Assembly (NCBI RefSeq): GCF_004027225.2
Contig: NC_044290.2
Coordinates: forward strand, 10,246,906 to 10,310,905
Origin: Strigops habroptila
Lineage: Eukaryota > Chordata > Aves > Psittaciformes > Psittacidae
Reading direction: 5' to 3'
Length of the DNA stretch: 64,000 nt
Position 1 is the stretch's first letter. Every line of letters begins with the position of its first letter. Below are positions 30,401-56,800 of the stretch, piece by piece. A model generated the notes under the pieces. It had not been told where the DNA came from. It saw only the letters and a program-made list of their open reading frames with translations, and did not search any database. The position numbers and the translations under genes were made by a program.

Positions 30401-33400
30401 GGAGGTGCAGTTTCTAAGAGCATGTACTGAGGTCTACCACCACCAGCAGGAGGTCATACCCTCATCTCCTCAGGTTGTGCAGATGAATTGCTGTGGTAGC
30501 ATCAAGCCCACAAGCTTGCCTACTAACCTGGTTGATAATGGACACCAGCTTTGGTTCTCAGAAGACACAACCAGGAGGACCCTTTGAGCTTCCCAAAGGA
30601 GCCTTTGCTGAAACATGATGCATTCCAGGGGTGTATTCAGAGAAACACACAACTTACCTCTCGCTCTACCTCTTTGGACTTGATGCCCTTGATTTCTGCA
30701 AAGGTTTTCAAGTTTTCTTTCACCGTTAAGACTTCAAACTGCACATTGAACTGGGGACAAATGCCAATCATCTCTCTAATCTCTTCCCTGTCTCTTATTT
30801 CAGAGAGTTTGTAATTGTAGATGGTTGCAGAGCCTGTTTACAGGAACAAATATGGTGAGGTGGAATGAACTGATCTTTACAGCTTCTGAATCAAGCCCAC
30901 TACTTGCCATCCTACCTTCAGAAGGGAAAGTGAGTCCACTGAGCACATTTAACAGTGTCGTCTTCCCAGCCCCACTGTGGCCGAGTAAGGCAGTGATCTG
31001 ACCCTCATAAATATTTAGAGACAAACCTAGAATGAAAACAACATCAAGTTTGGGAAGAAGTGAGGTTTAACTTGGCTCAACTCGTTGTTGAAGGCAAGAT
31101 AAGTCAAGAAGTATAAGCCCTAAGTAGCAATAATTAGCAAAATGTTAAGCAATGTGGGACAGAGTTCTGCAAACCTTTAACTAAAGGTATAAGAAGCTGC
31201 TCTGTATTTAGCAGAAGAGACCAAAATACAGTAGAAAAAAATCTTTCATCTCTTTAGTCTTATTAAAAATGAAAAATCAGTAAAGGCAAGACAAAATAGT
31301 GACCAGTTACATCACTTAATATTTGACATAAATTTCCAAGCAATGCAAGTGTTTTCTTTGACTGAAATGTTTGCACAACTGTTTTCCCTCATTTTTAACA
31401 GGAAGCAGTATCACAGCTTTCTTACCTCTTAAAGCTTCTGTCTTCTTGTCCTTCTTTTTATATGCTTTTTTAATATTGTTGAGTCTAAAAGGAGGATAAG
31501 GAGAATATTATTTCAGGATTCTTTTTTAGTGGAAGGTGTCCCTGCCTGTGGCAGGAGGTTGGAACTGGATGAGCTTTAAGGTCCCTTCAACTCAAACCAC
31601 TCTATGAAATACATTTCCCTGATGTTCTTTTTCATTCTTATGGGCCTTAATTTACAATGAGAGAAATGGCATAAAAAGTAAGAGGTACTGGGAAGCAACC
31701 CTGAGATTCAGCAGGATTTGGCATGCTCTGTACACAGACGTGAACATCTCTACCTGACACACAACACTGCAGCACCCAGCCTTGCAAAGACAAGCCCATT
31801 GCAACACATGGGTGGTTTATAATGGACTGACCTCCATGTTCTCCTTATTGACCCTAATGGATGTTTAACAAAGTCCAAAACAAAAAATCCCTGTTATTTT
31901 TTAATCTCAATTTATCCAAATTTCACCATTAGTGCTCAGCTTGAATTATCTATTTCTCTCATCTGCATTTTATTACTAATATTTCTCTGTGAAACAAAGT
32001 GTTTTGCAAGAGCCTCATGAACACAAAAACTGCCTGGCTAAGTCAAAATAAAGCTGATGGTGGAAGCGGTGGTTGGTGGGAGCATTAAACCCAAGCTACC
32101 CAAACTCAAAAAGCATGAAAAGCAACTCCTGTCTTTACCTGATGGCCTCTTTTCCCATGAATTCAGGGGGCACTGGCTCTACGTCATCACTGAGGAGCTC
32201 CTCAGGGCTCACTGAAGCTCTGGGCATCTCTCTGGTGGAGCCTCTCCTGCTCCGCACCCAGTACGAGGGCTTCAGGCAGAAAAAAGGGGGGTCTGGGATG
32301 CCATATTTGCCTGATGGGAAAGCAGAGAAGATGACCTGTCATTAACCAAAGTGACAACCAAGACACCATCCTGGACTAAACCTTTAAGAGGGTCTAATAA
32401 GTACTTGGGTTACTCAAAACTGGTACTTTGAGAAGTTAAAGAAAGAGGTTTGGAGATGGGTTTAGACAAGACAAGCAGGTTGGCTTCAGGGCTATATCTA
32501 GTGAATTCAGCATTTACTTAATGAATCAACATATTGTCCCATACATTATTACACTGTTTTCTCATAAACAGTTCAACAGCAATATAAGAGAAAGAAAAAC
32601 CACTAAGTACTTTGTTGTTTTTGATTTGGGACTTAAGAGCATGTGTGCCAGGGGCAGAAAAGTCACTCAGTAATATAATACAATACTTTTTTTTAGGCCA
32701 AAACCTATTTTGAGAATGGAGCAGCCCCTCATTTCCTTGACAAGCTATTACAAACAATCCATATAAATCAAAGGTATAAAATGAGAGAGTATAATCATAA
32801 GTATAAATTATACCTACCTGGCAGAACTTTGTCGAAGTACATAGCTAACAGCATGTACAAGACTGAGTCAAAGACCAACATAATGTAAGTTGAAAATAAA
32901 AAGTATGAATCCTCCATTAGGTTAGAAAAAGAGAAACCCATTCCGTATTTTTCTAAATGGAAAACCTGAAAGAAAGGACAAAGAAGAATAATTTTCAGGC
33001 TGGAAAACTATGCACATGCTGTCAAACCATGGGTGCAATTGACTTTGTTAACCTAGACATCGTCTGTGGTACTGACCAATTTTCCTTTCGTTCTATCTAG
33101 TGAGGAAAGGAAATACATTTATGTCATGCAGACATCTTATGATTTCATTTAGAATTTTCCAGAACAATCCAGAAGCAGAGATCAGAGTGTTATAGAAAAT
33201 CATCGAAGAAACATGATATTGGCACCCTTGACATGACAGAGTCATGACAAAGGCGGTGATATTTTACATAGTGATTGATTTATCCATATGGTAAATTGTC
33301 AGTAAAGTCAGTTTCTTTTCCTTCTGGTGTAGAAATCTCCTCTCCCAGGCAGATTTGTGTGTGTGTGTGTATATATATAAAAAAACATATATATTTGTGT

Positions 33401-36400
33401 GTATATATCTACCTATCTCTCTCTCTCAGGAAATCAAATATTACTGCACAGAATTATCCAAAGTGGGGATGGAGGATGGATGGCTGCAGCAGAAACCTCG
33501 AATTGTGTTTGCAGTGTTTCTGTTGCCAGGAAGAGTTGCTGCAGCAAAAGGGGAATGACCGAGTAGAGAAGAGCTGATGTCCCCAAGTCAACTCCCATCC
33601 TCCTGGGGTCCAGCCCCAGAGGATAATGGTGCCGTTGTGTGCGGCGATGGGCTCCCTGCAGCTTCCTCGGGTTCATGTGGGTGCTACAGAAGTGCACAAT
33701 GACAGATTGTGAGGAGGGCTGTGGTTTTCTTTGCATTCATCAGCTTTTAAACAGGGGAATGGGATGGGAGCATTGGAGCCCCTCTTTGCTGCCCAACAGC
33801 AACTCTGCTCGCATGGAGGTTTCAAGCCATGATGTGGGTATGAATGAAGAGTACCTGAAGATTTTACAAATGTGGAGAACCTGGTCTTTTGAAATGAGGA
33901 CCATGACTTCCTACACCTTTATCACCAAAGCACAGCAGGGTCTTTTATTGCCACTGTCTGTGATAAAATATACTCTGTTTGTCCCCACTATTTGCCCAGG
34001 ACAGCAAACTATTGGGAAGGTTCAGCTGCAGAGACGATGCACCATACCTTTGCAATGCCAGCATTAAATGCAAAAGGACAGAAGAGACCAAGAAACCACT
34101 TTAGTGGTTCAGGAAGATTTTCTATCAGCACCACAAGGCTCAGGCATCCGAAGAGGAAGGTGATGAGGAACCCCACGGAGCCAGCAAGTTTGGAGGTCCT
34201 TAATAGGGAGCAGAGCATGAAAACCAGGTGGATCTGTAATAACAAAAGTTTCCTTCAGTAACTGAAGAAAATAAAACTCTTTAATGGTAGCGCCTCCATT
34301 TGGCAGGCAAAGAGATTGCTGCTGAGCTGAGTCCTTGTAATAAAATGCACTAAAGTCCTTCTTAGTGTGTTGATCTGAGTTTCAAATCAGGTCTTTGGTA
34401 GCCAACCTGTTGCCTGTCAGACCTTCAGGCTGCAATTCAAATCACTGCAGCTGAGTAAGAGAATCCACCCAGCTATTTCAATCAGTATGACCATGCAAAG
34501 GATACAGTCCTGCGCCATGCAAAAGGCCCATCAACAGTGTAATAAATCACATAGTGAGAAAATTTGGCTGTAAAACCTGACTTACACACGCCAGGCCATA
34601 GAGGAAAAACAGCAGTAAGACTGCAGGGAAGCTGCTGAGGTAGAAAGAATCCTGCACCACGAGAGCTGTCAGCAGGCAGGAGAGGACCATCACATAAGCA
34701 GCATACAGCAGACTCCAGGAGAGCCTGAGGATGGAAAGGGGGCATTACAGTTTCATTTAAATAAGAACTGTTATTACAACTTAATCTGCATGTCACAACC
34801 ACTTTATATTAAGATATTAATTATTTCCCAGGGTCAACTCATTTGCATCCTAGGCAGAACAGATAGCACCATCCACCTGAGGAGGAAATACCCAAGGAAG
34901 AAGAATACACGCTTCTGATTTTCCCTTAGAGTACTGGAGAAAACTTATGATCTCATTAACTGACTGTTCAAGTGCCCAGGAGCATACTGACTTCTGGCAA
35001 ACATACTTTAGTTAAAAAAGAGCTCACCAAAACGCAATGTCCTGCAGTCCCATTGTCTTCATCAAAACTTTGAGCTGCTTCTTTTCTCTTACAACATTCA
35101 TTGACAAGAAATACATGAATGGAGAGAAACACATCACGATAGTAATCATGAAGTAACTGTACTCTAGTGTGATTGAGGAGATGACGCTCCGGGACTTCAT
35201 GCGGATGCCAGCAATTGATTTCATTTCTTCCCAAACAGAATGATTTGACACCACCTAAAGGAATTCAAGGTCAATGTTTCAGTACTTATTTTCTACAGCG
35301 AGATGGATTTATATAAGGAACCTTCTGATCCGTCATTCCTAGATGTACTTTTGAATGCAGCTTTATAGAAAACATCAACAAGTAATTCAATAATGCCCTA
35401 CAGGAAGGGCTCATCTGATTTATCTGTCTGCACCTCAGCCAGATTCCCTCCTTTGTCTAATGGGAGAGATAAATCTTTCGGCTCATCCAGAGGTAAGGAT
35501 TCAGGCACACAAATGATTCACATTCCCCAGTGTCCTGTTTCTCTCCCCAGGTATGAAAGCTGCCTGGACACCTGGAGATGCACAGCCAGGTGGAATGAAT
35601 CCTATCCTGCTATACTTTTGAGGAACAATTTGGAAAGGAAGGACAAGAAATGACAGACATGTCTGCTTTGAAACCAAATCATCCAGCAGATGTGCAGAGC
35701 ACCCCAGTCTCCTGCAAGAACTGTCTTTTCCTCGGAATCTGAGTAATTCCGTAAACCAAATAGTGGTATTACACTTGGTTCCCAGCCTTTAAGAGAAATT
35801 GTCATTTAAGAGAAACTGAAGTTAGCACAAATCTTCAAAATTAAATCAAAATCCATCATTTTCTTTAGGAACTGCTGCTTGCATTCAACTTCCCACTGGC
35901 ACTGCCAATAGTACTCAGGTGACCGAGTATTTAAAAAGCTTATTTTTATGCACAATTTTCTGGCTTTGCTATTGCCACAGAACAATTTGTCTCTCCTATA
36001 CCAAGCTTAAAACAAAAGGACCCCTACATCAGCTCGTAAGTTCAATTTACCTCTATAATAGCAGCATCGATGCTGGCCTGCAGGGACAGGAAGCCTTTGT
36101 ACCAATACCTTGGGCTGTGACAGTACCGTGATGAGAAATTATAGCAGTTATCTGCAAGGTGAGAGGTTAAGGGCATCACAGGTAAGAGCAGTGGAAAGTA
36201 AATGGTTTTCACTACAAAAGCTGATGATAAGATGCATGTGCACTATGGGAACTCTTCAAATGGACAGTGTCCCCCTGACCAAAAAAATAACAACTTATTA
36301 AATCACTGAACAGGTATAGGTTAATCCAATAGAGCAATTCCATCCATGCCAGGCAATCACCCACCCACAAATTCTCATTTTGTATTACCTATGTATCCAA

Positions 36401-37632
36401 AGTTGTCATTTGGAATAGCCACATTCCCAGTAGGAAACCTGAGGTGATAGGAGAAGTTGTCCTTAAATACAACCCCTATAATTTCATTATTTGAAATCCA
36501 GGCTTCTTCCAGGGCTCTCTCACTGTCCAGTGCCTCTAATATTATACCTGTGGTGTGTAAGAAAAGTATTGCAATGAGTTTCTATATGAGTTTCTATAGG
36601 TCTGCAAATATGTGCACAGGGATTGGGGGTATATTCTGCTTTTTTAGCACTGCAACTCCTCCTTCCCAGTTCTCCTCACTGGATGGGGTGGCACCTTTAA
36701 ATACTTTACACTTTATCTGTTGAGAAATATACCTCAGAAGAACAAACCAAGGTGTCTTAATAGTATTAGTCTACATAGTGAATATTGGGAAAGATTCAGC
36801 TTTGCAGCTCAGAGGCACACACTGGCCTCACTAGTAACTGATATACTAGAGAAGAAATATTTGTGAGAATGGAAAATTTGGGATGAATTTTCTCCCCTCA
36901 CAAAGACACTGGAGAACTAGTCAAACACAATACCTGTACAATAGGTTAAATAGTGACAAAGCTACATATTTAGCAAGCCAACCATACCTATCATTACAGA
37001 GTTCAAGGCCACTTTATTCATGATCTGTCTTGTGGTCACAGTGATGGGTGTATAAGCAATGGTGACCCCAGTGGCATCATAGGCAGGATCATCCAACTGC
37101 CCGAGGTAGCTGTAAGGCACTTCAGGGTAGCGGATGTTCATCATAAACGTGCACACTATGAAAATCACGGGCAGAAAGAACAGAGACAGCATCCACTCCT
37201 AGGAGAGGAGAGAGCAGAGAAGAGGATTTAATATATGACAATACAAAAGCATATTCTATGTGGGATTAAGGTATAAACAAGAAGCACTAAGTATCTTAGA
37301 TGTTAACATTGCATTGTGCCTGTCACCTCTGTAAATTACTCTGCTCGAAGAACCCATCTGTGCTCTCATATATCACATAAAAACCAGAAGTATTATCAGT
37401 CAAGAAAGTGAAGTCTCAAGTGAAGTCTCAAACCAGCCAGGCTTTCCAAAAGTACTTTAACTTAGGGCAGGCAGGGATTGGCCACTCTCAGGGGTTACCT
37501 ACTCACTTTTGCCTTTCTGTTTCAGCTTACCTGAAAGCTCTGCATCTTCATCCTCCACTTGATTAGTACGTTTTTCCACAAGAGAACTTTAGTTTGCTGG
37601 AACACACTCATATTTCTCTGAAGAGTCTTCAT
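17106..37632 (-). CDS. ABCA8/9/10-type full ABC transporter, copy A (38 coding exons, 1630 aa)
   Basis: A multi-pass membrane ATPase of ABC subfamily A; relatives (ABCA5/6/8/9/10) handle lipids and amphipathic organic anions. Exons in order of transcription (high-low): 37632-37531, 37198-36988, 36547-36389, 36151-36051, 35254-35028, 34724-34586, 34233-34048, 32965-32818, 32310-32139, 31484-31426, 31026-30916, 30833-30658, 30317-30198, 29844-29706, 29571-29481, 29119-28980, 28621-28505, 28338-28143, 27453-27284, 26572-26445, 26091-25954, 25529-25416, 25281-25111, 24776-24666, 24041-23913, 23131-23063, 22631-22540, 22122-22002, 21668-21551, 21095-21004, 20440-20262, 19683-19608, 19329-19235, 18740-18621, 18434-18294, 18020-17941, 17860-17805, 17204-17106. 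All introns are GT-AG, phases agree throughout, and the total is 4893 nt with no internal stop. Both nucleotide-binding domains keep Walker A, Q-loop, Walker B and a signature-like motif. The length fits the family (about 1580-1640 aa). It lies 3.3 kb downstream of its tandem twin, copy B. The ABCA8-like family call is firm; the exact paralogue is not. Confidence 0.95.
18621..22122 (-). CDS. Copy A coding exons 28-34: nucleotide-binding domain 2
   Basis: Exons 22122-22002, 21668-21551, 21095-21004, 20440-20262, 19683-19608, 19329-19235 and 18740-18621 encode about residues 1239-1505. Exon 28 is an acidic lead-in ([14 protein letters not shown]). Motifs: Walker [10 protein letters not shown] (1326-1334), Q-loop GYCPQ (1371-1375), signature-position LSAGITRK (1427-1434; human ABCA8 LSEGIKRK), Walker B VLLLDEPS with Asp1451-Glu1452, D-loop STGMDP, H-loop [14 protein letters not shown] with His1485. 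All ATP-site residues visible here are conventional except the signature. Short exon 32 (76 nt) was found by phase and by the AGKxxxR-like LSAG phrase rather than by an open frame. A CR1 fragment lies in intron 30. Confidence 0.93.
18915..18953. repeat. AT dinucleotide microsatellite, intron 33 of copy A
   Basis: Two (AT)n runs separated by an A-run. Confidence 0.75.
20635..20837 (+). repeat. CR1 LINE 3' fragment in intron 30 of copy A
   Basis: Sense-orientation phrases: CAGAGAAGCTGGGGCTGCCC, GTTCAAGGCCAGGTTGGACA, GGTTGGAACTGAATGAGC, ending CATGATTCTATGAA. Confidence 0.9.
22540..25529 (-). CDS. Copy A coding exons 22-27: second transmembrane domain
   Basis: Exons 25529-25416, 25281-25111, 24776-24666, 24041-23913, 23131-23063 and 22631-22540 encode about residues 1011-1238. 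Conserved phrases are [13 protein letters not shown] (exon 22), [18 protein letters not shown] (exon 23; human 'GLSPSAYWFGQALVDVSL'), VISFIFRKG (exon 24) and [11 protein letters not shown] (exon 27; human 'FTLRCLEWKFG'). Exon 25 (129 nt) is six codons longer than in copy B, and exon 24 one codon shorter. Exon 27 ends at AG|GTTGGTATA, where a second GT lies four bases downstream. Introns of 330-780 bp hold nothing recognisable. Confidence 0.92.
25954..27453 (-). CDS. Copy A coding exons 19-21: TM7 and second extracellular/luminal loop
   Basis: Exons 27453-27284, 26572-26445 and 26091-25954 encode about residues 865-1010. Exon 19 begins with a hydrophobic helix ([18 protein letters not shown]), followed by SARYFLPQG (human 'SPHLYFLAPG') and a NNT sequon. 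Exon 20 has [13 protein letters not shown] and [12 protein letters not shown], counterparts of human 'IDDFIQSVEHQ' and 'YNGAITVCCNEK'. Exon 21 encodes [15 protein letters not shown] (human 'NCFPVLMDIVSNGLL') with sequon NST. The acceptor of exon 19 was placed at TCTTTAG because it preserves phase 2 from exon 18 and matches the copy B boundary. Introns of 350-710 bp show nothing recognisable. Confidence 0.92.
28143..29119 (-). CDS. Copy A coding exons 16-18: linker after NBD1
   Basis: Exons 29119-28980, 28621-28505 and 28338-28143 encode about residues 714-864. Exon 16 encodes SLVKRYIPN...[11 protein letters not shown], matching human 'SLVKQHIPDAK...LIYTLPLER'. Exon 17 encodes [19 protein letters not shown] (human '[18 protein letters not shown]'). 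Exon 18 is the most divergent: an acidic, Gly/Ser-rich stretch (residues ~800-842) precedes the conserved [10 protein letters not shown] that leads into TM7. It is 36 nt longer than in copy B. The poorly conserved part is the usual position of the regulatory linker in ABCA proteins. Intron 16 holds a CR1 fragment. Confidence 0.9.
28680..28830 (+). repeat. CR1 LINE 3' fragment in intron 16 of copy A
   Basis: CCATCCCTGGCAATGTTCAA, GGAACTAGATGATCTTAAGG and CATTCTATGATTCTATAA, in sense orientation. Confidence 0.87.
29150..29266. repeat. CA/CCAAA-rich simple repeat, intron 15 of copy A
   Basis: Degenerate CCAAACAAAC units on the plus strand, G/T-rich on the coding strand. It includes five CCC runs between 29190 and 29237. 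It ends about 30 bp upstream of the exon 16 acceptor. Confidence 0.8.
29481..32310 (-). CDS. Copy A coding exons 9-15: nucleotide-binding domain 1
   Basis: Exons 32310-32139, 31484-31426, 31026-30916, 30833-30658, 30317-30198, 29844-29706 and 29571-29481 encode about residues 425-713. Motifs in order: Walker [10 protein letters not shown] (517-525), Q-loop GICPQ (562-566), signature LSGGQKRK (618-625), Walker B VLFLDEP (638-644), D-loop TAGLDP. The H-loop position carries Gln (FSTQ, residue 674), as it does in human ABCA8 as I recall it. Exon 9 is the variable cytosolic lead-in (residues ~425-481). Exon 15 reads WGICYHL where the family usually has GIGYHL. All seven exons have the same length as in copy B. 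A CR1 fragment lies in intron 9, ~40 bp from exon 10. Confidence 0.95.
31524..31612 (+). repeat. CR1 LINE 3' fragment in intron 9 of copy A
   Basis: TAGTGGAAGGTGTCCCTGCC and GGTTGGAACTGGATGAGC, in sense orientation. It lies about 40 bp from the exon 10 acceptor. Confidence 0.85.
32818..35254 (-). CDS. Copy A coding exons 5-8: first transmembrane domain (TM2-TM6)
   Basis: Exons 35254-35028, 34724-34586, 34233-34048 and 32965-32818 encode about residues 192-424. Exon 5 has the sequon NHS, a hydrophobic helix ([18 protein letters not shown]) and the cytosolic ABCA signature stretch [21 protein letters not shown]. Exons 6 and 7 hold further helices ([29 protein letters not shown]) and the family phrase [13 protein letters not shown]. 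Exon 8 ends [17 protein letters not shown], as in ABCA8 (YLALAIYFEKILP), and is five codons longer than in copy B. Intron 7 (about 1.1 kb) is the longest in the gene and holds a compound microsatellite; the other introns show nothing recognisable. Confidence 0.93.
33353..33430. repeat. Compound microsatellite, intron 7 of copy A
   Basis: (GT)n, then (AT)n with an A-run, a second GT/AT block, and finally (CT)n, all within about 75 bp. Confidence 0.85.
36051..37198 (-). CDS. Copy A coding exons 2-4: TM1 and first extracellular/luminal loop
   Basis: Exons 37198-36988, 36547-36389 and 36151-36051 encode about residues 35-191. Exon 2 opens with a hydrophobic helix ([16 protein letters not shown]), followed by the ABCA-typical loop containing [16 protein letters not shown]. 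Exon 3 carries [16 protein letters not shown], the counterpart of human ABCA8 'VRVTFTNTYSYHLKF'. Exon 4 has an N-glycosylation sequon (NFS) and ends ASIDAAIIE, matching human 'AAINAAIIE'. Exon 4 is one codon longer than in copy B. The introns between them show nothing further apart from a short tandem duplication (gtgaagtctcaa twice, ~37416-37429) in intron 1. Confidence 0.93.
37531..37632 (-). CDS. Copy A coding exon 1: start codon and N-terminal cytosolic stretch
   Basis: The exon encodes residues 1-34. The start ATG at 37632 is chosen because the following residues align with the human ABCA8 N-terminus as I recall it (QQT..LL.KN) and it is the first in-frame ATG after an acceptor-like TTTGTAG that ends 8 nt upstream. 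A second in-frame Met at residue 8 (MSVFQQT) is possible. The segment VLLWKN fits the xLxxKN motif described for post-Golgi sorting of ABCA proteins. It ends on a normal GTAAGC donor, in phase 0. The upstream acceptor implies a non-coding 5' exon that I cannot locate. Confidence 0.88.
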
Positions 37633-41070: not shown

Positions 41071-41813
41071 TCAGGGGTGAAGTGGTCTCTGCTCCACAGC
41101 CCCATCAGATGCTGCATCAGGGTCATGCTCCTCCAGGTCCCTGGTGAGGTCTACAAACACCTGCAATGTGCCACAGCAGAAACAACCCCATTATAGCCAG
41201 TATTCACCCTGACAGTATTTACACTGGTCACAGGCTATTTCTTCCTTTTACATAGTCAGTTCCTAACCTATAACTTCTACATCAGCATACCTGTTGCAAG
41301 GAGTGCAACGACAAGCTGTAATCCTCAAGCCTGAAATTCTGTTTAGCTGCAGAAGGATGGAGAGGGCATCCATAAAAACCAAATCCATATGAGCAATTTG
41401 AAAGCAATCTTCTTGCTTAATGGATTGTTTCCTTTTACCTGCTTCTAGCTTGGAGAAAGACTGGGACAGAGGTAGTGCATTTTCCATTGGTATCTTGTAG
41501 ATGAGTGAAGAAGTCGTCCTGAAAAAGTAATAAAATGATGAGTTCATCACTGTGTGAGTCAACACCAAGGTTTAGGGGTGCTTGTAGGTACTCCCAAGTG
41601 AATTATTGAACAAGGAACAACAGAGGGTCCCAGCACAAGTCCGGGCTGGGTGTGCAGCCCATGGGCAGTGACCTTCCTTGCCAAGATGCGTAGGGGAAGA
41701 GGTGCAGAACTTCGGTGTGGAGAGCATCGCTTTGCCCCGGGTCTGTCACTTTGATTTCTAGGTGGTAACTTGTGCCAGACTTCTTTTTCAGATCCTCAAG
41801 GGAACCGATGTAC
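41071..41813 (-). CDS. Copy B coding exons 35-38: C-terminal domain and stop
   Basis: Exons 41813-41673, 41518-41439, 41346-41291 and 41160-41071 encode about residues 1484-1605. Phrases: [69 protein letters not shown]. The ABCA C-terminal VFLEL segment reads VFVDL here. The frame ends RPLHP then TGA (41073-41071). Confidence 0.92.
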
Positions 41814-44800
41814 CTGCAGAGGAGGGAAAACATTGCTCAAACCGTCATGATCAGCAAATCAAGCAGCCACTGTATACGAGCAGCAGATGCCTCTCCTCTT
41901 ATTCATCAGCTGTTTACACTGTGCTGCTGAAACAACCTCCTCACCAAACTGTTTGTTACACACTTGGAACAATCCAAACCAAGATATTCTATTAGATTAA
42001 GAAGAATCATAGTTGACAAACTGGTTTGGGTTGGAAGGACCTTAAAGCTCATCCAGTTCCAACCCCCTGCCATGGGCAGGGACACCTTCCATTAGAGCCC
42101 ATAGACCCCAGTGCCCACCGTAGCTGCCCTGACACCAGGATGGCCACCCGGTCACACATCGCTGCCGCCTCCTCCAGGTACTGCGTGCTGAGGATGGCTG
42201 CACGCTCCTTGCTTTTCATGGCAGTCTGAATCACTTTCCTGGGAACAGAGGGGTCACAGTTACTTCCCAGGAATAGCCACAGAAAATCTGGTTTATGTCT
42301 CCCACACCCCAATTGAAATGATGAAGTTATAAATGAGTTGATGACTATTTAAAAGCCGTCAGCTATCTTGTGTAAAGATGACATGTGGATGCTGATGTTA
42401 CGTTGCAATTTGTCATGTCAGCATCCCTCCAAATTTTACACCTTCAGCATAAACTGCTGATGAAAAGCTGGAGCAAAGCACTAAATATCAATGACGAAAG
42501 GGAAGGACTACCTCTGAATTTTTCTCTTGCTCTGAAGAAAACAGGAGTTTTTGTCTTTTGTACCACATACATGGGTTCGGCTGGTGTCTACTGAGATTTT
42601 TTGGGGTGTACCACCATTCAGATTGCATCTGATGGTTAGCAAGGGCTTACTGCCTGCTGAATAAGGAGTTTAAGGGTACTCCATCCCTGTGCATTAGGAA
42701 AAAGGGGAACCTCTCTGCCTGCTCAATGGTTACTACAATAGGGAAGGTAAAACCCATTCCGTTAAGTCTGTCACACACTTCTCAACTTTGCTAAAACATG
42801 GTTGCTCACCACATAAGGCGCTGTCCTTTCAGGTCCATGCCCACTGATGGCTCATCCCAAAGCATTACCATTGGATCTCCCAGGATGCTCAATGCAAAAC
42901 ACAGCTGAAACAGGAAAGACACTGAGGTCAGGTCAGGTTTGCTTTTACTTTACCTGCAGAACTGGCGAGTTGTCCCTCTACACCTTAATTCATGTGAATC
43001 TCTCAGAAGCTGAAGTTCATGATTCCAAAATGCAAGAGGAACAAGGATTCAAAAAAACCACCTCAAGGTGTTCTTAGTTAACATTGGAAACTCCCAAAAT
43101 CAGCTTCCCCCAAAACTTCTAAGCCTGCCAAAGAACTAAAAGGGGTTTTCCATCCCATTTACTGGCAGATGCACATGGTGGGGCACGAAGAGGTGATTAC
43201 CTTGTAAATCCAATTTGTGGTTAGCATTTATTAAACACACAATGTGGGAGAATGGGGAAAGAGAAGAGGGAGGGATCCTGCCAGGCTGGATTCAAAAGCT
43301 ACTGATGGAAACAGATCATGCCAGGAACCCATTCTGCTCAAGGATTTCTGTACACGTTTAAGGAAGAAAGCAGGCATAGAAAAGCTAAAAGTAGCCAACA
43401 CACATCTAACACAAACCTTTCTGGCTTCTCCAGCAGATAACCTCCTAGCTGGGGTTCTTAAATGCTTCTGGAGATCCAAAACCTTTCCTATGCTGTGGGG
43501 AACAGAAAGGAAAAACACTGAAATGACCATCTCTGCTTGCTAAGGCAGGGGTACAGAGGAACCAGACACTAACGTATTTGTTTCAGCTGATACACATCAC
43601 CTAGGGTTACTTGGTGATTTTACTGCTAGCTTGGATGGTAAATTGAGTAATTTTTACTGAAATTCAAGACAATAAGTGCAGCTAATGAGAGAAGTGAGTT
43701 ATTCACCTAACTGACCATGAATTGGAGCAAGTGTAGGGTTTCCTAGATAAAATAGGGTTAAAATCTTTATTGATAAGGAATTGAGAACAGTAACAGCTAG
43801 CAGATCTCATGAGAATGAGATCCCATTTCTCAAAGTGGCATCGAAGGTGCTGCCTCTTAATCACGGCAGCCAGGTTTGCTAGCAGACAAACCTTTCCCTG
43901 TCCTATACCTCTGGAGAGAGGAAGAACCGAAAGCTGACATTTGGTTTTGTACCGGCTGATGATAACTGCTGCATCGTCTTTCCTCATCCCTCTCACGGCA
44001 GTGTAGACCTGCAGGTGCTGGTGCACGGTGAGGTCTGGCCAGAGCGGGTCCTGCTGTGGGCAGCAGCCCAGGCATCCCAGGATGCTCTGCCCTGGGGTGG
44101 AGACAGCTCCATCATGGACCTTGAGCAGCACCTGCAAACACACACACCTCCATAGCTGTAGAATGTTATTCTGGGGAGAACCATTGAACCCCTTGGAAAT
44201 GTGGTTGTGTTTTCTCCTGTGTTGTGAGGAACCTCATGAGCACATAGAATCATGGAATGGTTTGTGTTGAAGGGACCTTAAAGCTCATCCAGTTCCAACC
44301 CCCTACCACGGGCAGGGACACCTTCCACTAGAGCAGGTTGCTCCAAGCCCCTGTGTCCAACCTGGCCTTGAACACTGCCAGGGATGGGGCAGCCACAGCT
44401 TCTCTGGGCACCCTGTGCCAGCGCCTCAGCACCCTCACAGGGAAGTATTTACCACCATAAAACTTTGGGTAATAGTACCAACATGAGACCATTTTTTTCT
44501 TTGTAATTCTTCTCTATTTCAAACATTCAGTCCCAAATCTGTAACAGCAATGGTATTTTCCCTCCCCCAGCACATGCCATTAATCATCCTGCACATAATT
44601 AAGTGATGGATTTTTGCTGGCCCAACCCTGTTCCCATTCGTTTTCAATTTCCTGGGTTTGCAAGGCTGTTTATGAAGAGTGTTATTAATACGTTTTTTAG
44701 ATGTCAACATTTCTTACAGGGTGTGTGAAATTTCTTGATGTGTTTCAAACACACACCAAAGACTTTGTGTAGCTCAAACCCTTAACTCTGTAACACTGAT

Positions 44801-47800
44801 TTTGATGTAAATTAGAATGTGCTCAGACTAAATCAAAGCACATCATTCTTTTCTTCTTACTTCTGCAAATAGGGTTGCATGTACATAAATTCCCTGACTT
44901 TAGGGCTGTGTTGCCAGCTTGCCTTATCACATCCTTAATTCATAAGGGCATCAAGGTCACCCCCTGCTGCCCCAAAAGAGTCACCTACCTCCCCAGCAGT
45001 CACTGTTATATCTCCAGAAATCATGTTTATAGTGGTGCTTTTTCCAGCTCCATTGGGTCCTAACAGACCTAATACTTCTCCTGGAAAAATGATGCAAGAA
45101 CTGTTAATAATAAATATTGTTAATAAAACTGTCTTCCCTGTGTGCCAGGCAATATCTAAAAGAACAGTAGGAGGAAAAACTGCTCATAAATCCCCATAAA
45201 TTAAATGCAGGAGTTCAGGTGTGTTTGGTCCAGTCACACAGAGGAATATTCTAACAAAAATATGGTCTGCAAATGTGACCTTCACATTAGTCATTTATAA
45301 GGAGTTCAGCAAAATACTTGAACCTTTTTTAACTGTAAAAGAGAGGTTTTTGACAGCAACTTTCTTCCTTTTCTTAAAGATGGAACTGGCTTTCTTGTCT
45401 TCATATTCCTTGCGCAAACTGTTGACAACGATCGTTGACTCCTGTGAAGAGATGAAGTGGGAAATAAAACCTCTGTTCCTATCCCACAAGACAGCTCATC
45501 TGTTCTTACCATTAAGTATGACCCTGTAAAGACAACATTCCTAAATTAAAAATCCAGGAAACAGAGCAACAGAATGAAGAAAAGCAGAATAGGATTTAAA
45601 ATACAGTGCCAGCTAAACTCCTCCTGGTGCCAGGGTGACTGTGGGCTTCATGGCGAGATGTGCACTTGGACATCAGATCAGTAAATAACAAGTGCATGAG
45701 CTAAGAAAGCAGACAGGCCTGAAGATGGAGAATGAAAAGAAAACAAGCCATAAGGCTGGTTTCACCTCCTCCTGCTGCAGTGAGGCCATGACATTCCTCA
45801 CTCTCTCCCTCTCTGCATGGACTTCTGGGGGCTCCTCCACAGGGTGCTCCCTGTTCTGGCGGGCAACCAATCTCCTCTTCTGGATCCTACAAATGGAGGA
45901 GGAGAGATAGTGTCAATGGGAATCACTTCCAAAAAGGATTGATTTTTCAAGTTTGTTCCCAGTGTGTTGCCAACGCAGTGCCCTGTAAAATTTGAGTTCA
46001 GGAGGTGTTGCACAGACAGTATCTACTCAAATATTTATTAACTGGGGAAAAAATAATCCTGCTGGCATGCATCAGAAAATAAGGGCTGTATTTAGCTTTT
46101 CTTTCATCAGCAAGCATTGGCTGGTCCTATAAGTATTGACCAGGTTGACACCTTCCACTAGACCAGGTTGGACGGGGCTTGGAGCAACCTGCTCTAGTGG
46201 AAGGTGTCCCTGTCCATGGCAGGGGGTTGGAACTGGATGAACTTTAAGGTCCCTTCCAACACAAACCACTCTGGAATTATATGATATGATTCTATAGTCC
46301 TTTGCTCGACACATGCCAGTGATTTGTTCAAGGAGAATTTAAATACATGTGGCAGATTTTCAAAGGTATTTGGGCATCTCACTCGCAACTGCGTCACATT
46401 TGTCAATATTTGACAACTCAATATTTTTCAAAAACCTCCTACATGACTTAGGTGGTCAGTCACATGCTGTTGGTGACAGATAAGCAGAGAGCAGGTTTCA
46501 AACCCCAACCTGATGAAGCTTATGGGGAAGTTTCCATCCTGCAGCAAGCAACAGTAACACAGTTGAAAAGGAGTTAAAATGTTGGATTTCAGTTTGTAAC
46601 TCTCAGCTTGGCCAGCTGGAGTGAAACATCCTGAAACCTCAGTTATGAAGCTTAATGTAAAAAAGCTTAAATCACATTTGTTGTTCTCTCTAGGACATTG
46701 CAGGTCAACTGACCTTCTATTGCAACATGCTGGGTGGGAATTCACCACCAAACGCATTCAGGGAAACTCCAGTAAGTAAAGTCAGACAATAATAACCCAA
46801 AAGAATATAACCCCCCACCTCCCTTCATTCTCAATTTCCTCCCTTCCAGATAAACTGATTCAAACAAAAAATATTACTTTAACCACACTTTGCTACAGGT
46901 CTTTAAGTTCACTTGTACCCTCCTCCTGCTGTCAGGGGTTGAGCCAGGAGGATGCTGCCTGGTTGTGCAGCACTGAGCCCATCCCACAGACTGGGACAAC
47001 CAGGCTCCAAAGGCACCCTGGTGCCCACGACACACCTGAAAATGGGATCAAGTCTCGTAACTGCTTCTCCAGATCTCATCTCCAAACAGCGCAGGAGAAA
47101 AGCAAAAATCACACAATGGATGAAAGGCTGAAAAGGAAAAAAATGGAATAGGTTCGTATGGAGAGAAGATAACATCACACTTGTTTAGCTTTAACTATAA
47201 GGGGATGCAGGAATCTATCTCATTTACTTCAGCTACTGAAAAGGTCCAGAAGGGGAAGAAGTTAAATTGATGCTTCACATACATTTCCACCTCATATGCA
47301 GATCATTTGCAAAGGCCTTGGCTTCATACTGCAGTTTTAGCTCAGATAATCTGCACCCCAACAGACATCCTACAGGATCAGAGAGCACTCCTTTCTTTTG
47401 TAGAAGCAGCATTAGACTGAGTAGTTGATTAATAATATCCCTGCCTTATACATGAGCTCTGCATAATCCCCCCACTTTTGCCCATATGATACAGCAACCA
47501 GGGGTCACGTATGGCACAAGCCCATGATGACTTGGATGTTCCTTCCATCCAACATTTAATATGAAACTTTGACCGCGTAACCCATGCTTTATTTATGGGG
47601 AGAGTTATAAAAGCCCATTGCAAGTCCATCACATTAGAACGGTCATGCAAAACCCCATCATCGAATTGCTCCTTACTGCAAAGGCAGCTACGAAAATGTG
47701 ATTCCACGTCTCAAGAAGAGTGATATTGTCAAACCATGAGTAACTCTGCAAGAAAAGAAGGTCAGTCAGTCAGAAAAATTCCCTAGCACAGGGTGCCTCA

Positions 47801-50800
47801 GCGCAAGGTCAGGGCAAGCGTGACATGTAGGATGCTCAGCTTTCCTCAGGATGGGATAAAGGAGCTTTGATTTGTACTTATTCTTTTGAGTTCATACTGC
47901 CTCAAAGAGCTGTGGCTTCCTTGGCTAGAGCTAATTCAGAGATATCTCAAATCAATCAGGTTGGATTGATCTTTTTCATCATTGCTTCTCTCTTCCCAGT
48001 CTTTCACCTCCTTCTGCCAGGTTACTTCATCCAGGTATCCCCCTCTACCACCTTCCCCTCCCATCCTACCCTGGCTGCCAAAATACAGTCATTATAACAG
48101 CTCTTTGTAACTAAACCCCCCCAAATATCCCAATCAAACAAGTCCAGTCTTGGCCCCTTATCTCAATCCTCAACTTGGACCCTTTATTCTCCTGTTGTCT
48201 TTTGACAGTTGGCTCTTTGAGACAGGGAATTTGCAAAGTGCCTCTTGCTTTTCCAGTTTGTGCCATTAGGACCATTACTGAATTTAGTAGGACATGTTTA
48301 CTTACTGGTGTACTGAAGATCAACCAGCCCAGAGGTGGAAACACAGGAATCAAAATAGAGAAGGTGAAATAAAGTGCTTCGTGTAGGTCACTGAGCATAT
48401 AGAGCGTAGAATTCACCTCGAATAAATCAGAAAAACATTTCCAATATTAATGTGTTCTTGCTAAAAAGTAGGCTGTCACTAAAAATCAATCTGATTTGGG
48501 TTATTCTGCTGAATAGCGGTATATTTGAAATGAAATCTCAAGTGGTGAGATGTGTAAATCAAATGCTTCAGATTCACTTCACTTACCAGAATGAAGATGA
48601 AAGACCAAATGTAACGATTGCTTCGTCCTGTGCGAAATTTAAAGGCAATTAAATAGACGAGGAGGACGAGAGATACTCCATAACCAATGGTGCAAATGAT
48701 CTGGAGAAAGAGAATGGTGTCAGCGACAAGGAGATGGATGTGGGTATATGAAACCTGCCTAGAGCAATCTGTTTAAATGAAAGTATTTAAAGGACAAACT
48801 CACTGTGAAAGGAGGGAAAGGGATTTGTGTCTGCAGGCAAAGAGCTCACCAGGGGCAGGACAGTGTTGGCCTGCAAGGGGCAGATGCGATTGAAGAGCAC
48901 CAGGACCCCAAACATGAGGCACATCAGGGTCCAGAAGAGTGGGACATCCACCAGTGCCTGCCCACACCAGTATGCTGAGGGGAAGAGCCCTGCGAGCCGC
49001 AGCTGGGCACGAGCCTGGAGCTGTGAAAGAGAATGGGGAAAGGGAGATGATTTAGAATAGCCTAAAGCATCATTCCTGCTCCTCCTTATCCATTACCCTC
49101 AGTCCTTCCTTCCCTGCCTCAGCCTTCCTCTCCTTTTCAAGCACTTCTAAGTCTGTCTTAGTTCTTCTCTTGTTTTAAACCACATCATTATTTAAAAAAC
49201 CCAAACAAATCCTCCTGACCCCCAAAAGCTTTAACACCCCCCAAACTGTTCAGACCCCTCACTGATTCCCTGAGATGGAGGGTAACACACTTTGGAACAA
49301 CATTGTGCTCATGTGACTATATTTCTTCTATATATTATATCTAGATGTATCTAGTTTATTATGATATTATTCTACATGGTATAGATATATCTAGATATAA
49401 TATGATATATTATAGATATAATATATATTATAGATGTAATATCTAGAAATGCCCACTGGTACGTGCTCTCTGCTCTCCAGAGATGTTTCATTTGCATTTA
49501 TTCCTTGTGTAAGACCACTTCCAGCATGTGCTTTTTACCTTGTAATCCTCCATGCTCCTCATTGCAAACTGAGGAGGCAAACCAGCAGCCAAAATCAGCA
49601 TGTAGCTGAGGCAGATGAAAAAGATATCACTCTTTACTTCTGGGTTTTGTATCTGTGGAAGACAAATACGGAGGCATATCAATAAACAGCTTCCCAGGGA
49701 AAATCTAGCTAGCTCAATGCTCCTAGGATGGTTAAACATGCAAGTGCATGATAACACTAATGGGAAGTCATTTGTGTTTAAGAAAATAAAACAAGGCATT
49801 AAAAAAACCCCCAAATTTAGCATCTTAGAAGCTGCAAAAAGTATTGGAATTAGTGTAAACTGTTGTGGATAGATTCCATCTTTTTGATGTTTTTCTTTCC
49901 AAACAGATGCTGAAGAAAAGTGAGGTGTGCAAGAATTACTTGTGAAATACTTATATTTATTCCTATATATAATACTTCTATACATTCCTATACTAAGAAA
50001 TACTTATATGAATTCCTACCATATTGCCACATAGCACAAGCTTAAACGTCTCATGGCACTGAAAACCTGTAGAGCACTTAAACACTGCAGAAGAAATTAC
50101 CATTAAATAGCACTGGTTTTGACTGCTGAGCAATGCCCCCAGGAGCTGGCCAGCAGTTGGACCATTAACCCCAACCCTTGGAGGCTGCTCGCCCAACCAG
50201 GTTTCCAACCCATTGATTATCACTTCGGCATGGCTATTTCAATTCATTTTCATCCAGAAACACTCACACTGTAAAAGGGCTCACTCCAGACACGGATGCG
50301 CGCAGTGGAATTGAAGAGCCTTAGAAAGGTGTTGCTGAGGATATTCACCAGCACAGGGAAGCAGTTGATGGGTTCTGCACTGCACATGACCGTGAATCGG
50401 TAGCTCTGAAGATGTGAGAGCAAAAGACATTACCTTTACACTCATGGAAGGTGTGAGAAGGAGCTGAGAGCAGTGAGGCGTTGAGAGGAAAGCAATGACA
50501 AAGGAATTAGAGTTATTGGTGGGATCATGGAGACCTGGAAATGTGCTAACGAGAACCACAAGGAAAATGAATGATAAAGACTTCTGGAGAAGATGATTGA
50601 TAAAGACAACAACTTCTGGAGAAGAGCACAAAAGACTTGCATTAGTGCTTTCCTCTAAAGATCACTGTTAAGAAGCATGCAGTGGAAAGACCCAAATATA
50701 ATCCTGGTTTCCCCCAAACAGAACTACCAATATTATTTAATATGTCAAACAAATATTCTCCCTTTTGCTGGTGTGTGTATTTTGCTGTGCCTCATTTAAA

Positions 50801-53800
50801 CACATTGCAGAAAATCCTGTTGACACACAGAATGAAAGAAGCAAAAATATCCCTCACCTTGCCTTCCAGGGATATTTTTATAGCTCCGTTATATAGTGGA
50901 ATGCTTGTGATGTTTTTCTCCAGAGTTATTTCTGGGGTTATGTTTTGAGTCTTCAAAGCAGCAAGGAAATCCTCAATTTCTGACCCTGAAATCAAGCCAG
51001 GAACAGAAATTAGAGTAGTTAGAGATTTATTTCTTTAAGTATAAACAGTTTCATATAGGCAAGTTCCCACTTGCAGAGCAGAGGTATGTTAAAACCCCCC
51101 AAACATTCAGAATATAAGCAAACTTATATTTCCCCTATTCTTCTTCTATTATAATTAAACTGGTTAAACACAATGTATGTTTCCACAGTTAGGTTGTTTA
51201 TTGCTTTTAATAAGGAAATAAATGCCTGGTTCGTTGTTTTTTTAAATATCAGCTACTCAGTTATCATCACTAAAACTGCATTTGCTTCTGGCCAAAAGAA
51301 AACACCTCCCAAAGCCACAAGTATATAAAGGGACGTACAGAAATAGCAAGGCAAGGTTGGTCTATCAACTCTAAGAGGACTCAGAGTGGTGCAGAAAGCG
51401 AATCAACATCACATGTTCTTCTTCACCTGTGTCATTGATGATGAGAAGGTTTGATGATTTATTTTGCATTTTCTCTTCAGTGGGAAGGAAATACAAGCTG
51501 GCTGTGATTTCCCAGTTACTGGAGCTGTCCCACAGTTGAAATCCAATGAAAATCATCATCATTGGAAGGATGAATATTCCAAAGAACAGCAATCTAAATG
51601 GAAAAACAGGCCATAAGTGGGTGCAGGGGAACTCCACTTCCAACTGTGTGATTTATGCTGAGAAAGACAAGGGGGAATTTAAAACTTAAGCAATTCAGAG
51701 CTCTACCAGTAAGATCCGACTGTCCTTATTACTGCAGCTTTTCTATGTTTTTCACCTAATTATCTGCTTCTAAATATCACCACCAGTATTTAAGTGTTCC
51801 CTCATTCACCCAAGGTAATGATCAAATACTTTGAAAAGCACCAAGAGGGAAGGCGAGAGCTCTTGTACTTACATGGACCTGAGAAACTTTCCTTCATGCT
51901 TTAGCTTTAAGAAGCGAACTCTCATCACAGCACACACTTGCTGCCTCCAGAGCTCCATCTCGCTCACTGCTGTGCTTCTCTGTTTGGAAAACACCAGGAG
52001 GCTTTGGTCCCTCTCCTCCAGGTCTCCGTCCTCTGTGTGTTCAGCACAAGGAATACCATTATCCACAAAGAGCATTCAAGGGACACATTTTAATCACAGT
52101 CAACAAGAATCTTCTATTCTGGTTAGAGGAATGCTTTTACTTTTTACCCAGAAAACAAACAAGGGCAGAGAAAAGGGGCCATAATCTATCTAGAACGTAA
52201 TTTACATCACTGAGTTCAGATTGGCAGAACCTGGGCTCATCTGGAAACACTTCCAATAGCTTCATTGGCCTTGTGAAATGCTGATGTCTACCTTATTTCT
52301 TCCCACCTCCTGGTCTGGGCAGTGCACCCTTCAAAGGCAAATCACTTCCAATGTCATCCTTCAATTCTTGAGCTTAAAAGCATGTGGGAAGTCAAGATTG
52401 AATCATCGAGACTTCTCCAAGAAGGTCTTCTTCAGGAAAGTTAAATACAACTGCAGCTCTTGACTTACCAAAACCTACTGAAATTCACATTGATACTAAT
52501 TAGGTAATCAATTAAAAGGTATGCCTATGTGGAACCTTAACCATAACTTGCAAATCGGAGTCACTGTTTTACCTTCTTGATCAATGGCTTCCTCACCCTC
52601 CAGCTTCAAGAAAACCTCTTCCAGGGTTGTCCTGCTAACCTCATAGTTAACAACACCCTGTGAAAGGCTGCTCTCCAGATGGCTGAAGAGATCTGCACAA
52701 TAGAAACAACAGACTCAGCCCAGTGACCAAGGCTGGTGTTGAGCAGAAGCTTAGACTGGCAGGATTGATCTTGCATGTTCTAGCATTCACATCATTCATC
52801 TCCATAGCTTAAAAGCCATGACAAATTTATTGCTCTCTTTAGAAGTAAGTAGCAGAAAATTCAGAGTCTTTGATTACCATGGGCCATCATGAAACCATAG
52901 GAGACCCAGTGGATTGTAGTTTGTAGATCAGTTGGTGGATTTTCTTTTGTTCATCTGCGTTATTAATATTAGCATGTCCATTAGAGGCTTTCTATAAGGA
53001 TAATATTTATGGAGCTCTGGGCTTCCAAATCCCATGCAGTATTGACCAGGGAATATAGTTATTCCCTCCACCGAAACTTTGCTGTCTGCTTTTCCCACCA
53101 CTTGGTTTCCCTTTACAACCCTGGCATAAGGACAGGCTTTTCTTACCTGAGAAGCTATTAGTGTTTTCCAAAGGTAGCATATAACGCAGCTCTCCCTGCT
53201 TCTGTCCTTTGAGCACAGCACTGGGGATGTACTGTCTGACCAGGGATGATATAAGCTCAGGGTCACACAACTCATCTATGTGCATCCTGTTTGTATCAGA
53301 AAGCAATTACTATAATATTAAATGAGAAAAAAACAAAGCATGCATCACCCATTTAAAACAGAAAGCCACCAGAAGCTCTTCAAGCCATAGGGAAACCTCC
53401 AAAACTGGGCAGCATTTCAGTGGGGATTTTCATTGACATCTGCAGTGCCCCTGGTTTTGCCATGCACAAAAGGAACACAGAAATTAAAATCCAAAGGAAA
53501 ACAGCTTCCCATTAAAGCAGTTGTACATCGCTGGCACCACAGAAGAGGTGGAAATTACAATTCATTGTACTCTCATCCCATTTGGGCTGCAAAGGAGGTT
53601 GCGAAGTCATTTTAGCTGCATGCACAGAGCTTTGAGTATTGGCTTCCAAAGAAAAGCAGCTTCTTATCCAAAGCAAGATATTTTTGGTAGCGTCAAAAGT
53701 CTTCTAAATTGATTTGTCAAGATTTCTATTACTCTATATAGAAGCTCTGTAGAGACACAAACCCTACAAGAAAGGACATCAACTAGAAGCTTTCCATAAA

Positions 53801-56800
53801 AAGAGTGATGACAAAAAGAAAAGGATTTACCTCAAGTGATAGCCAATTCCCCATTTTCTCTTCAAGTACAGAGATGAGCCCACACACTGTAATCTCCCAT
53901 TTGAGAGGAAAGCTTTCCGATCTAAGGAGGCATGGATACAGAGGATTGAGGGGGGATTTACAACAGTGCAGCAGACTGACCTCACTCTGCTCCTTCTGAA
54001 CTCAACAGGCATTTTTATAATGAAGTTGAGAGGAGTAAGGCCAGTGCTGAAGGGTCTTTCTTTTTAAACTGATTCCTTTCTCCTAAGCATCAAGGTTAAT
54101 CTTTTAATTACACATTCTTACAGGCCTGTGGAAGATTTCCCATGCAGCCCGGGAGCAATATGGAGACAGGAAAAATATTAATTCAAACAATATCACTAAT
54201 GCGTGTGGGTGCTGCTAGTAGTATATCCAGATAATATGCAAGTGCTTCATCCTGATGCAGAACACAAGCAAAGTCTTGGAGAAGCACATCAGTCCAGTTT
54301 TAGCCTTTGCTCAGCCTGGGGTGGGTGGTCGCTGTCAGACAAAATGTGTCCCATGAGCACAGACTGCATCATGGTGGGACCCATATGTAGGCTCTGCAAC
54401 AGGAAAGTCTTGTTTGTAAAGTGTATTCAGCTACAGTGTGAAGATCTAGGCTCACCAGCATGAGCATCAGCTTCCTCCATGGACTGGGTCGTGAAGAGCG
54501 TCACACGTCCAGCCTGGCGCTCCTTCAGAAGGTTCCACACGTGATGCCTGGAGCAGGGATCCAACCCAGCCGTTGGTTCATCTAGAAGCAGCACCTGCAA
54601 AGGCGAATGAGAACAGACCTCCACGTGTCCAAGCTGGAATTTCCATCTTTACATCATTTCATTTCATGTTTTTGATGATCTCATTCCGAGAATAAAATGC
54701 ATCCTCAAATATCAGCCATAGTTATTGCTTTCTCCTATTACAGTATTATTACCATTTTAATCTAAAATACAGTTCTCATTGACCTAGAATCCTCAATCCT
54801 TCCAGCAGCCAAGTGAATTAGCAGTTCAGCAGATTCTGAGTGCCAGGGGAAAAGCACAAGTGTCTATGTGCCAAGTCAAAATGCAAAGCTATGTGCTACA
54901 ACAGTTTGTGTTTTGTATGTATAAATATGACCATTCCCTACCTGGGGATTCCCTAAAATTGCAATTCCAAGAGACAATTTTCTTTTCTGTCCTCCACTCA
55001 GAGCATCAGCATGAATGTCCTGAAGATCAGCGAGGTCCAGCATTGCGAGAACCTTCTGCACCTTGGCAACATACAAAGACAAGAGCCAGATTTCCAAAGC
55101 ACTGGTCGCATTTTAATTCATAGAATCATAGAATCAACTGAGTTGGAAAGACCTTTAAGATGATCAAGTCCGACCTTTACCCCAGGTCTGTCAAGACCAC
55201 CAGTAAACCATGTCATAGAGGCTGGTTATAATCTTTTAAAAAGCTCAAACTTTCCAAGATGCCATGAAACAGAGGTTAGTGACTGACAAGCACATACCAA
55301 CCTCTTGCTCTAATTCTTTCTGCTGAATCCCCTTGATGTGAGCAAAAGTTCTCAGGTTTTCCTTCACTGTTAAGGCTTCAAAATGCAAATTTAACTGGGG
55401 GCAAATCCCAACCATTGCCTGAATTCCTTCCATATCCCATACTTCAGAAACTTTGTGGTTGTATATCATTGCAGAACCTGCAGACAGGAATGAATGAAAC
55501 AAATCTCATATGGTACAGTATTTCCAAGTTATAGGGGGAAAGCAGACTGCTTTGTATTCATACCTTGGACACTAATTCCAGCATTGTGAATGTTTTTCAA
55601 GTGCTTAAAAATTAAAAGGCAAAATAACTTTGTGTTGTCCAAAGCTTTAACACCACTCAAAGACACTTCAGAGCACAAAATCTCTCCCTTAAGAACTAGA
55701 ACATATTTCCTATAGGTATGCAGCTCATGGAAAACATCAGGCCACCCAGACTGAGAAATAACCATCTGTGCATGCTTGCACACATGAGCATATCCATAAG
55801 GGATGCATTATCCTGAAGCTTGTGTTGATGGAGCAATCTGCACTGACAACAAGCCAGATTGGATGACTGAGGCGAGAATTTGGGGTTTTGCATCTTTATT
55901 CTTTTATATATGGAAAGGCAACCATCTTTTCCTCTTCAGCATTGGGGTCCATCATCTTACCTGCTGAAGGCTTGGAAAATCCACTGAGCACATTTAAGAG
56001 AGCAGTTTTTCCAGATCCACTGTGACCAAGTAACGCAGTGATCTGGCCTTCATATATACTTAAGGACAAACCTAGAATAAAAATAGGATGACATTGGCAT
56101 GGAAGTTTGTGATAAATAGACTTGTACCTGTAGCTTGCTACCAAGTATGACAGAGGAGTGACGCTTACAAAGATGAGAGGCAAAAAGCACAGATCCAAAA
56201 CCATAGGTTGCATCTTCAGAAGTTAGGACTAAACTTCGTAAGGAACTTCCAGCCATGAATTGAGGGAACAAGCGTATTAGCTTCCATATTCAAAGAATTT
56301 TGACTTCTGTTTTCTATGGGGTTCATAGACTTTTATTTTAGCATGGCTCAAGAAAAAGTCCACAGAAAGAGAAGAGCCCATACCCTTTCCAACACGTGAG
56401 ATCAAGTTTTTTCAAAGCAGCCAGACTTTGTTACCTCATTTCCTTTAAAAAGAAAATACTTCTTTTGTATTTCTGTGGGTTGTTGGGGTTTTGTCAGTCA
56501 ATATAAACCTTTGAGACCATATTGATACTTTCACCATCACTTGGAGATCTTGCTAAACAAAGGCGTCTAACACACATCCCACAACTATGCTATGACTGTA
56601 TCAACTACCTTCAAACCTGCAGCTGGCAGATGTGCAAGTGCTTGGAGAACAGGGCTCGGGCAGTGACAGCAGCCTCAGCTATAGACAGGGACCAAAAAGA
56701 CAAGTTTTATTTGCCCAAAGTAGTTTACAATTAGAAAGGGAGGTTCAAGAGGGGACTTCTCAACTGGTTCATTGCTGCAAAAGCCACAGCTTTTAAGGAC

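Follow-up and report, generated by a model that had tools for sequence, protein, structure and literature searches.

The stretch of DNA that we analyzed (64 kb, C15:10246906-10310905; hereafter the window, to which all positions below refer unless a contig is named) carries two ABCA genes on its minus strand, here called copies A and B. A third ABCA gene, copy C, lies on the same strand upstream of B and beyond the window, completing a head-to-tail arrangement with A and B.

41071..63102, minus strand: copy B, ABCA8/9-like full transporter (37 coding exons modelled, 1582 aa; Pfam)
17106..37632, minus strand: copy A, the canonical neighbour (37 coding exons modelled, 1595 aa; NBD2 H-loop STHY)
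C15:10308906-10368905 (L008-L013), same strand as B: copy C, ABCA5-like (His at both H-loops)

Copies A and B were modelled jointly as spliced genes, with phases forced to be equal and stop-containing exon candidates discarded. Each gene has 36 introns, all with GT-AG ends except one GC-AG intron. The first coding exon of B (63102-62998, minus strand) ends in a GC donor (gcaagtac) instead of GT. Of 1578 aligned residues, 886 are the same in the two proteins. Copy C was matched at 35 of the 37 exons, some of them with low scores, and is presumably ABCA5-like, a name based on its sequence and position. NBD exons that are ABCA3-like were seen on another contig at C4:69086000-69095999 (L017) and C4:69099432 (L077).

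Matches to Pfam ABC2_membrane_3, ABC_tran and R1_ABCA1 were above cut-off in both halves of B (searched as pieces of 794 and 689 of the 1582 residues), the second ABC2-type membrane domain barely so (32.9 vs 31.6 bits); a 72-residue piece of B and two single exons gave no Pfam match. Chains of ABCA3, ABCA1, ABCA4 and ABCA7 top the list of solved structures nearest to NBD2 of B. By its domain plan, copy B is a full ABCA-subfamily transporter with two TMD-NBD-R1 halves, and by likeness and position it is ABCA8/9-like, clustered with A and the ABCA5-like gene.

Four residues of the NBD2 site are changed in copy B

Walker A, Walker B with the catalytic Glu, Q-loop and signature are recognisable in both NBDs of B, which keeps the Walker A Lys, the catalytic Glu and the Q-loop Gln of each NBD along with the NBD1 signature LSGGQ. 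The NBD1 Walker A of B reads GHSGSGKTA (56071-55961, minus strand), in which residue 520 is Ala and not, as in A and C, Thr. Set against a canonical site 2, B departs at the H-loop (Gln1440 for His), while NBD2 retains its Walker A Lys, Walker B Asp-Glu and Q-loop Gln, and NBD1 its LSGGQ. The features of NBD2 are as follows.

44989..45080, minus strand: exon 29 of B, NBD2 Walker A intact (gene model, splice ends)
43953..44131, minus strand: exon 30 of B, NBD2 Q-loop GCCPQ with its Gln retained (Cys1327 in place of the Tyr that precedes CPQ)
43417..43492, minus strand: exon 31 of B, NBD2 signature LSAGEARK (LSAGITRK in A)
42810..42904, minus strand: exon 32 of B, NBD2 Walker B and D-loop (usable splice sites)
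42857..42859, minus strand: Trp1405, TGG, before the Walker B Asp (Leu in A and C)
42842..42844, minus strand: Val1410, GTG (Thr in A and C)
42830..42832, minus strand: Leu1414, CTG, D-loop (Pro in A and C)
42119..42238, minus strand: exon 33 of B, NBD2 H-loop exon (usable splice sites)
42181..42183, minus strand: Gln1440, CAG, H-loop (His, CAC, in A and C)
18621..18740, minus strand: exon 33 of A, NBD2 H-loop STHY, His1450 (joint gene model)

Three of these residues had been reported in an earlier, sequence-only reading of the same DNA, and their codons are read directly: TGG at 42859-42857, CTG at 42832-42830 and CAG at 42183-42181. Residue numbers depend on the gene model: W1405, L1414 and Q1440 of B are used here, where the earlier reading had W1428 and Q1463, and the NBD2 H-loop His of copy A is H1450 here and was His1485 there. 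The altered Walker B and D-loop neighbours that it described (Trp1405 and Leu1414) are thus borne out, and they are extended by a fourth change that it missed, Thr to Val (SVGMD in B vs STGMD in A and C). At the codon level, position 1405 is CTG in A and TTG in C (Leu) and TGG in B; position 1410 is ACT in both A and C and GTG in B; position 1414 is CCC in A and CCA in C and CTG in B; and position 1440 is CAC in both A and C and CAG in B. Because Leu, Thr, Pro and His are kept in A and C, all four changes are, by this comparison, derived in B.

The codons also bear on the possibility that the B residues stem from faulty assembly or sequencing or from a rare allele, which we regard as very unlikely. 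A single base separates His from Gln and Leu (TTG) from Trp, and these two could have arisen in this way, but three bases differ between Thr and Val and two between Pro and Leu; because two of the four changes need more than one base relative to both relatives, single-base errors do not explain the set. Moreover, the changes span two exons ~570 bases apart and stand among many B-specific residues. A search of the bird's own genome (1.149 Gb in 89 contigs) gave no second near-identical copy among the seven matches that were scored: the top hits, at 98% and 91%, correspond to the two exons of B, and the next reaches 73%.

The NBD1 H-loop Gln predates the split of A and B

The statement of the sequence-only reading that B has no H-loop His in either domain holds, with Gln669 (TTQS) in NBD1 and Gln1440 in NBD2. 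The corresponding NBD1 exons are:

54456..54594, minus strand: exon 14 of B, NBD1 Walker B and H-loop TTQS, Gln669 (gene model)
29706..29844, minus strand: exon 14 of A, NBD1 Walker B and H-loop STQF, Gln (gene model)

At the NBD1 H-loop, A and B have Gln and C has His, and an NBD1-type H-loop has His at 8 of 8 distinct places that could be read besides A and B in the same genome, C included (28 matches, 20 of them given as loci). Because Gln is common to A and B while His is found elsewhere, the Gln would have arisen before the A/B split and is not private to B; on this comparison, it is no sign of loss in B. Mammalian ABCA6, ABCA8, ABCA9 and ABCA10 probably have Gln at the NBD1 H-loop and His at the NBD2 H-loop.

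Copy B has changed faster than copy A and has lost fixed columns in NBD2

We defined fixed columns as those at which human ABCA1, human ABCA3 and copy C agree, which gave 67 columns in NBD2 and 84 in NBD1. In NBD2, 10 fixed columns are changed in B alone (Y1327C, K1377T, L1405W, T1410V, P1414L, H1440Q, M1442L, C1462Y, Q1467E and F1473S), none in A alone and 7 in both, and the 10:0 split between B and A is significant (two-sided binomial p = 0.002). In NBD1, the counts are 6 in B alone, 2 in A alone and 6 in both (p = 0.29 for 6:2). Private residues, counted with C as outgroup over 1403 compared residues, number 175 in B and 100 in A (p = 7e-6), and by this measure B is evolving faster than A overall. 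For the single domains, the counts are 36 in B and 17 in A in NBD2 (of 261) and 16 in each in NBD1 (of 207); in a relative-rate test, the 36:17 of NBD2 differs significantly neither from the 139:83 of the rest of the gene (p = 0.53) nor from the 16:16 of NBD1 (p = 0.11). It is therefore the fixed-column count that suggests a special loss in NBD2, and there the contrast in B between NBD2 (10/67) and NBD1 (6/84) is not significant (p = 0.18).

In a whole-gene codon model, omega was 0.19 for A and 0.40 for B, a difference that is not significant (2dlnL 3.04), and neutral evolution of B was rejected (2dlnL 7.82, 1 df). For NBD2 alone, omega of B was 0.76, with both neutrality (2dlnL 0.18) and equality with A (2dlnL 3.37) unrejected, and for NBD1 alone both were likewise unrejected (2dlnL 0.69 and 0.70, respectively); with silent sites saturated, these single-domain branch omegas are unstable.

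Copy B has kept an open modelled frame

The sequence-only reading took the open frame to argue against simple decay. In agreement, B has 37 homologous exons in order and no stop in the modelled exons, although the frame agreement with A and the absence of stops are partly built into the model search by the forced phases and the discarding of stop-containing candidates. Exon lengths are equal in A and B for 29 of the 37 exons. Under neutral drift from copy A at rates of 0.3 and 0.66 changes per codon, the whole gene would be expected to gain ~16 and ~30 stops, respectively, while the 1582 modelled codons have none. For NBD2, simulated drift at 0.58 changes per codon gave an expected 4.5 stops and a probability of no stop of 0.005, which rose to 0.07, 0.15 and 0.38 at 0.3, 0.2 and 0.1 changes per codon, respectively. 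These results suggest that B is a gene maintained for most of its history, on which constraint may have been recently relaxed, in NBD2 above all.

An alternative that we consider unlikely is that B is in early decay, with constraint relaxed so recently that no stop or frameshift has been acquired so far. The faster overall change of B and an NBD2 omega indistinguishable from 1 fit this idea, as does the state of two splice sites: the upstream acceptor AG of exon 18 in A is missing in B (52130-51820, minus strand), and the exon 28 donor of B is low-scoring (gttcaagt vs gtgagatt in A; 45441-45324, minus strand). We note that exon 18 was modelled in both copies from an AG further in and in the same phase, though A has the upstream AG. 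A stop-free frame is also compatible with brief drift, being retained in 38% of simulations for NBD2 at 0.1 changes per codon and in 5% for the whole gene at 0.05. At 0.1 changes per codon, however, the whole gene stayed stop-free in only 0.3% of 300 simulations; moreover, exons 28-36 match A in length in 9 of 9 cases, and the excess of private residues in NBD2 over the rest of the gene is, as given above, not significant.

Gln at the H-loop has parallels among the prokaryotic relatives sampled, Trp1405 none

Using patterns from the B segment itself, we gathered 49 prokaryotic relatives. The H-loop residue is His in 43, Gln in 2, Thr in 2 and Asn in 1, and is uncovered in 1; both Thr cases are one-residue alignment slips over what is in fact TTH. 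The two with Gln are the loci L018 and L020, located where the DrrA model exceeds its curated cut-off. At L018, one ATPase gene precedes a permease-like frame; a dimer of its product would carry Gln in both sites and thus probably lack any H-loop His. A search with the L018 ATPase matched 649 plasmid records; among the 40 matches listed we picked 12 by hand, of which 8 have TTQ and 4 have TTH or TSH, one of the latter being annotated NodI. Counting L018 and L020 as well, 14 bacterial and archaeal relatives were inspected and 10 have Gln; these carriers of Gln are distant from B, and the sample is non-random and biased to Gln.

For the other three changes, the picture is uneven. Val in the SxG motif is ordinary (16 of 49 relatives). 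At the D-loop Pro position, Leu occurs in 3 of 48 relatives (one of them poorly matching), Val in 3 and Ile in 1. Trp before the Walker B Asp was found in 0 of 49, and an exact search for codons of WDEPxxGLDP across 299 genomes from a single bacterial phylum gave one raw match, a count that has no denominator. In this sample Trp1405 is thus the most unusual change, ahead of Gln1440. The question raised in the sequence-only reading of whether active relatives have the same residues is accordingly answered in part: with relatives judged by sequence, Gln comes close, Pro to Leu finds a weak parallel and Trp finds none.

The best NCBIfam score for the 72-residue B segment was to TIGR01188 (DrrA), with 57.5 bits against a curated cut-off of 312.45 bits that applies to the whole protein; we did not assign B to this family, the score being for the segment only.

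Discussion

The sequence-only reading went from the loss of the H-loop His to slow or absent ATP turnover. As stated, this step is unsupported, given the Gln in the biased set of relatives and the behavior of MRP1, in which, as summarized in a review (PMC7756269), transport stays close to wild type when the NBD2 H-loop residue is Gln or Asn and is almost entirely lost with other replacements. His mutants of HisP, MalK and HlyB, with replacements other than Gln, are described in another source as having lost ATPase activity, with Pdr5 as an exception (PMC9867378). Against a tolerated single swap in B, on the other hand, speak the 10 fixed NBD2 columns lost only in B and the unparalleled Trp. 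Slow or absent ATP turnover in B is, on these grounds, possible.

ATP sites in these transporters are composite, site 1 being formed by the NBD1 pocket and the NBD2 signature and site 2 by the NBD2 pocket and the NBD1 signature. Copy A combines an H-loop Gln with LSAG opposite in site 1, and His with LSGGQ in site 2. This pattern fits the degeneracy of human full-length ABC proteins, which, according to section 7 of the review, always affects site 1 (PMC7756269). Our working model is that the ancestor of A and B already had a site 1 with Gln at the H-loop and the altered signature LSAG, and a standard hydrolyzing site 2 made of the NBD2 pocket and the NBD1 LSGGQ. Later, in B, site 2 would have drifted, with His changed to Gln, Leu to Trp, Thr to Val and Pro to Leu. 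The Gln of B would still be able to contact the ATP gamma-phosphate, and neither catalytic Glu has been lost; B is therefore expected to bind ATP at both sites and, at site 2, to hydrolyze it more slowly but still usefully. We favor this model, in which B is a kept, putative lipid transporter whose drifted site 2 works more slowly, with a confidence that is evenly balanced.

A further alternative is that B no longer usefully hydrolyzes ATP, with both sites binding ATP and clamping the NBDs together, so that B would act as a slow switch, a partner or a scaffold and not as a pump. The absence of an H-loop His from both NBDs points in this direction, as do Trp, Val and Leu around Walker B and the D-loop and the loss of 10 of 67 fixed columns in B only. 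Degenerate sites that are too slow for transport are well known, but in human full-length proteins they are always site 1 according to the review (PMC7756269). Both catalytic Glu are present, however, and Gln is tolerated in MRP1 and common in DrrA-type ATPases; moreover, nothing in our sequence analysis points to a switch role, or directly to the regulatory role suggested in the sequence-only reading. We therefore view this alternative as rather unlikely. A bolder proposal, which we hold to be improbable, is that a B with no H-loop His in either site and a site 2 rebuilt by Trp, Val, Leu and Gln is fixed across birds as a slow ATP-gated switch or a Gln-based pump.

If the changes are fixed in birds, B would offer a natural test of the need for the H-loop His, with Gln in both sites and copy A as a matched control in the same cluster. 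As a vertebrate protein with a changed site 2, B would also be an exception to the site-1-only degeneracy that the review describes for human proteins (PMC7756269). Literature searches for bird or clustered ABCA8/9/10 genes and for changed H-loops listed no paper recognized as describing such a protein, a weak result in that subscription papers lie mostly outside the search; the ABCA subfamily is termed under-studied in a review (PMC8717091).

Compared with known systems, B shares with the ABCA5/6/8/9/10 cluster the two TMD-NBD-R1 halves and the head-to-tail position by an ABCA5-like gene, and with copy A the exon plan and the Gln at the NBD1 H-loop; it differs from the cluster in having Gln and not His at the NBD2 H-loop and in Trp, Val and Leu at Walker B and the D-loop. 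The NBD2 mutants of MRP1 (ABCC1) have the same His to Gln change in the hydrolyzing site, but they belong to another subfamily, are engineered and, as presented in the review, are without the Walker B and D-loop changes (PMC7756269). TAP, Pdr5 and CFTR resemble B in having ATP sites that depart from consensus, H-loop included, as the same review describes (PMC7756269); in the human degenerate-site proteins covered there, however, the departure is in site 1, whereas B has a changed site 2 and keeps both catalytic Glu. With regard to DrrA-type exporters, OtrC is reported to have an ATPase part 41% identical to DrrA and to show ATPase activity in membranes (PMC3533511), and a paper on a mycobacterial DrrA describes its H-loop in words as conserved (PMC11539658). 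The exporter ATPases of this type (TIGR01188) share with B an H-loop of the TTQYLEEA type with Gln, as in L018, L020 and 8 of the 12 further relatives, but are half-size ATPases with a separate permease gene, and L018 and L020, at ~40% identity to B over 80 residues, have Leu before the Walker B Asp and a GLDP D-loop.
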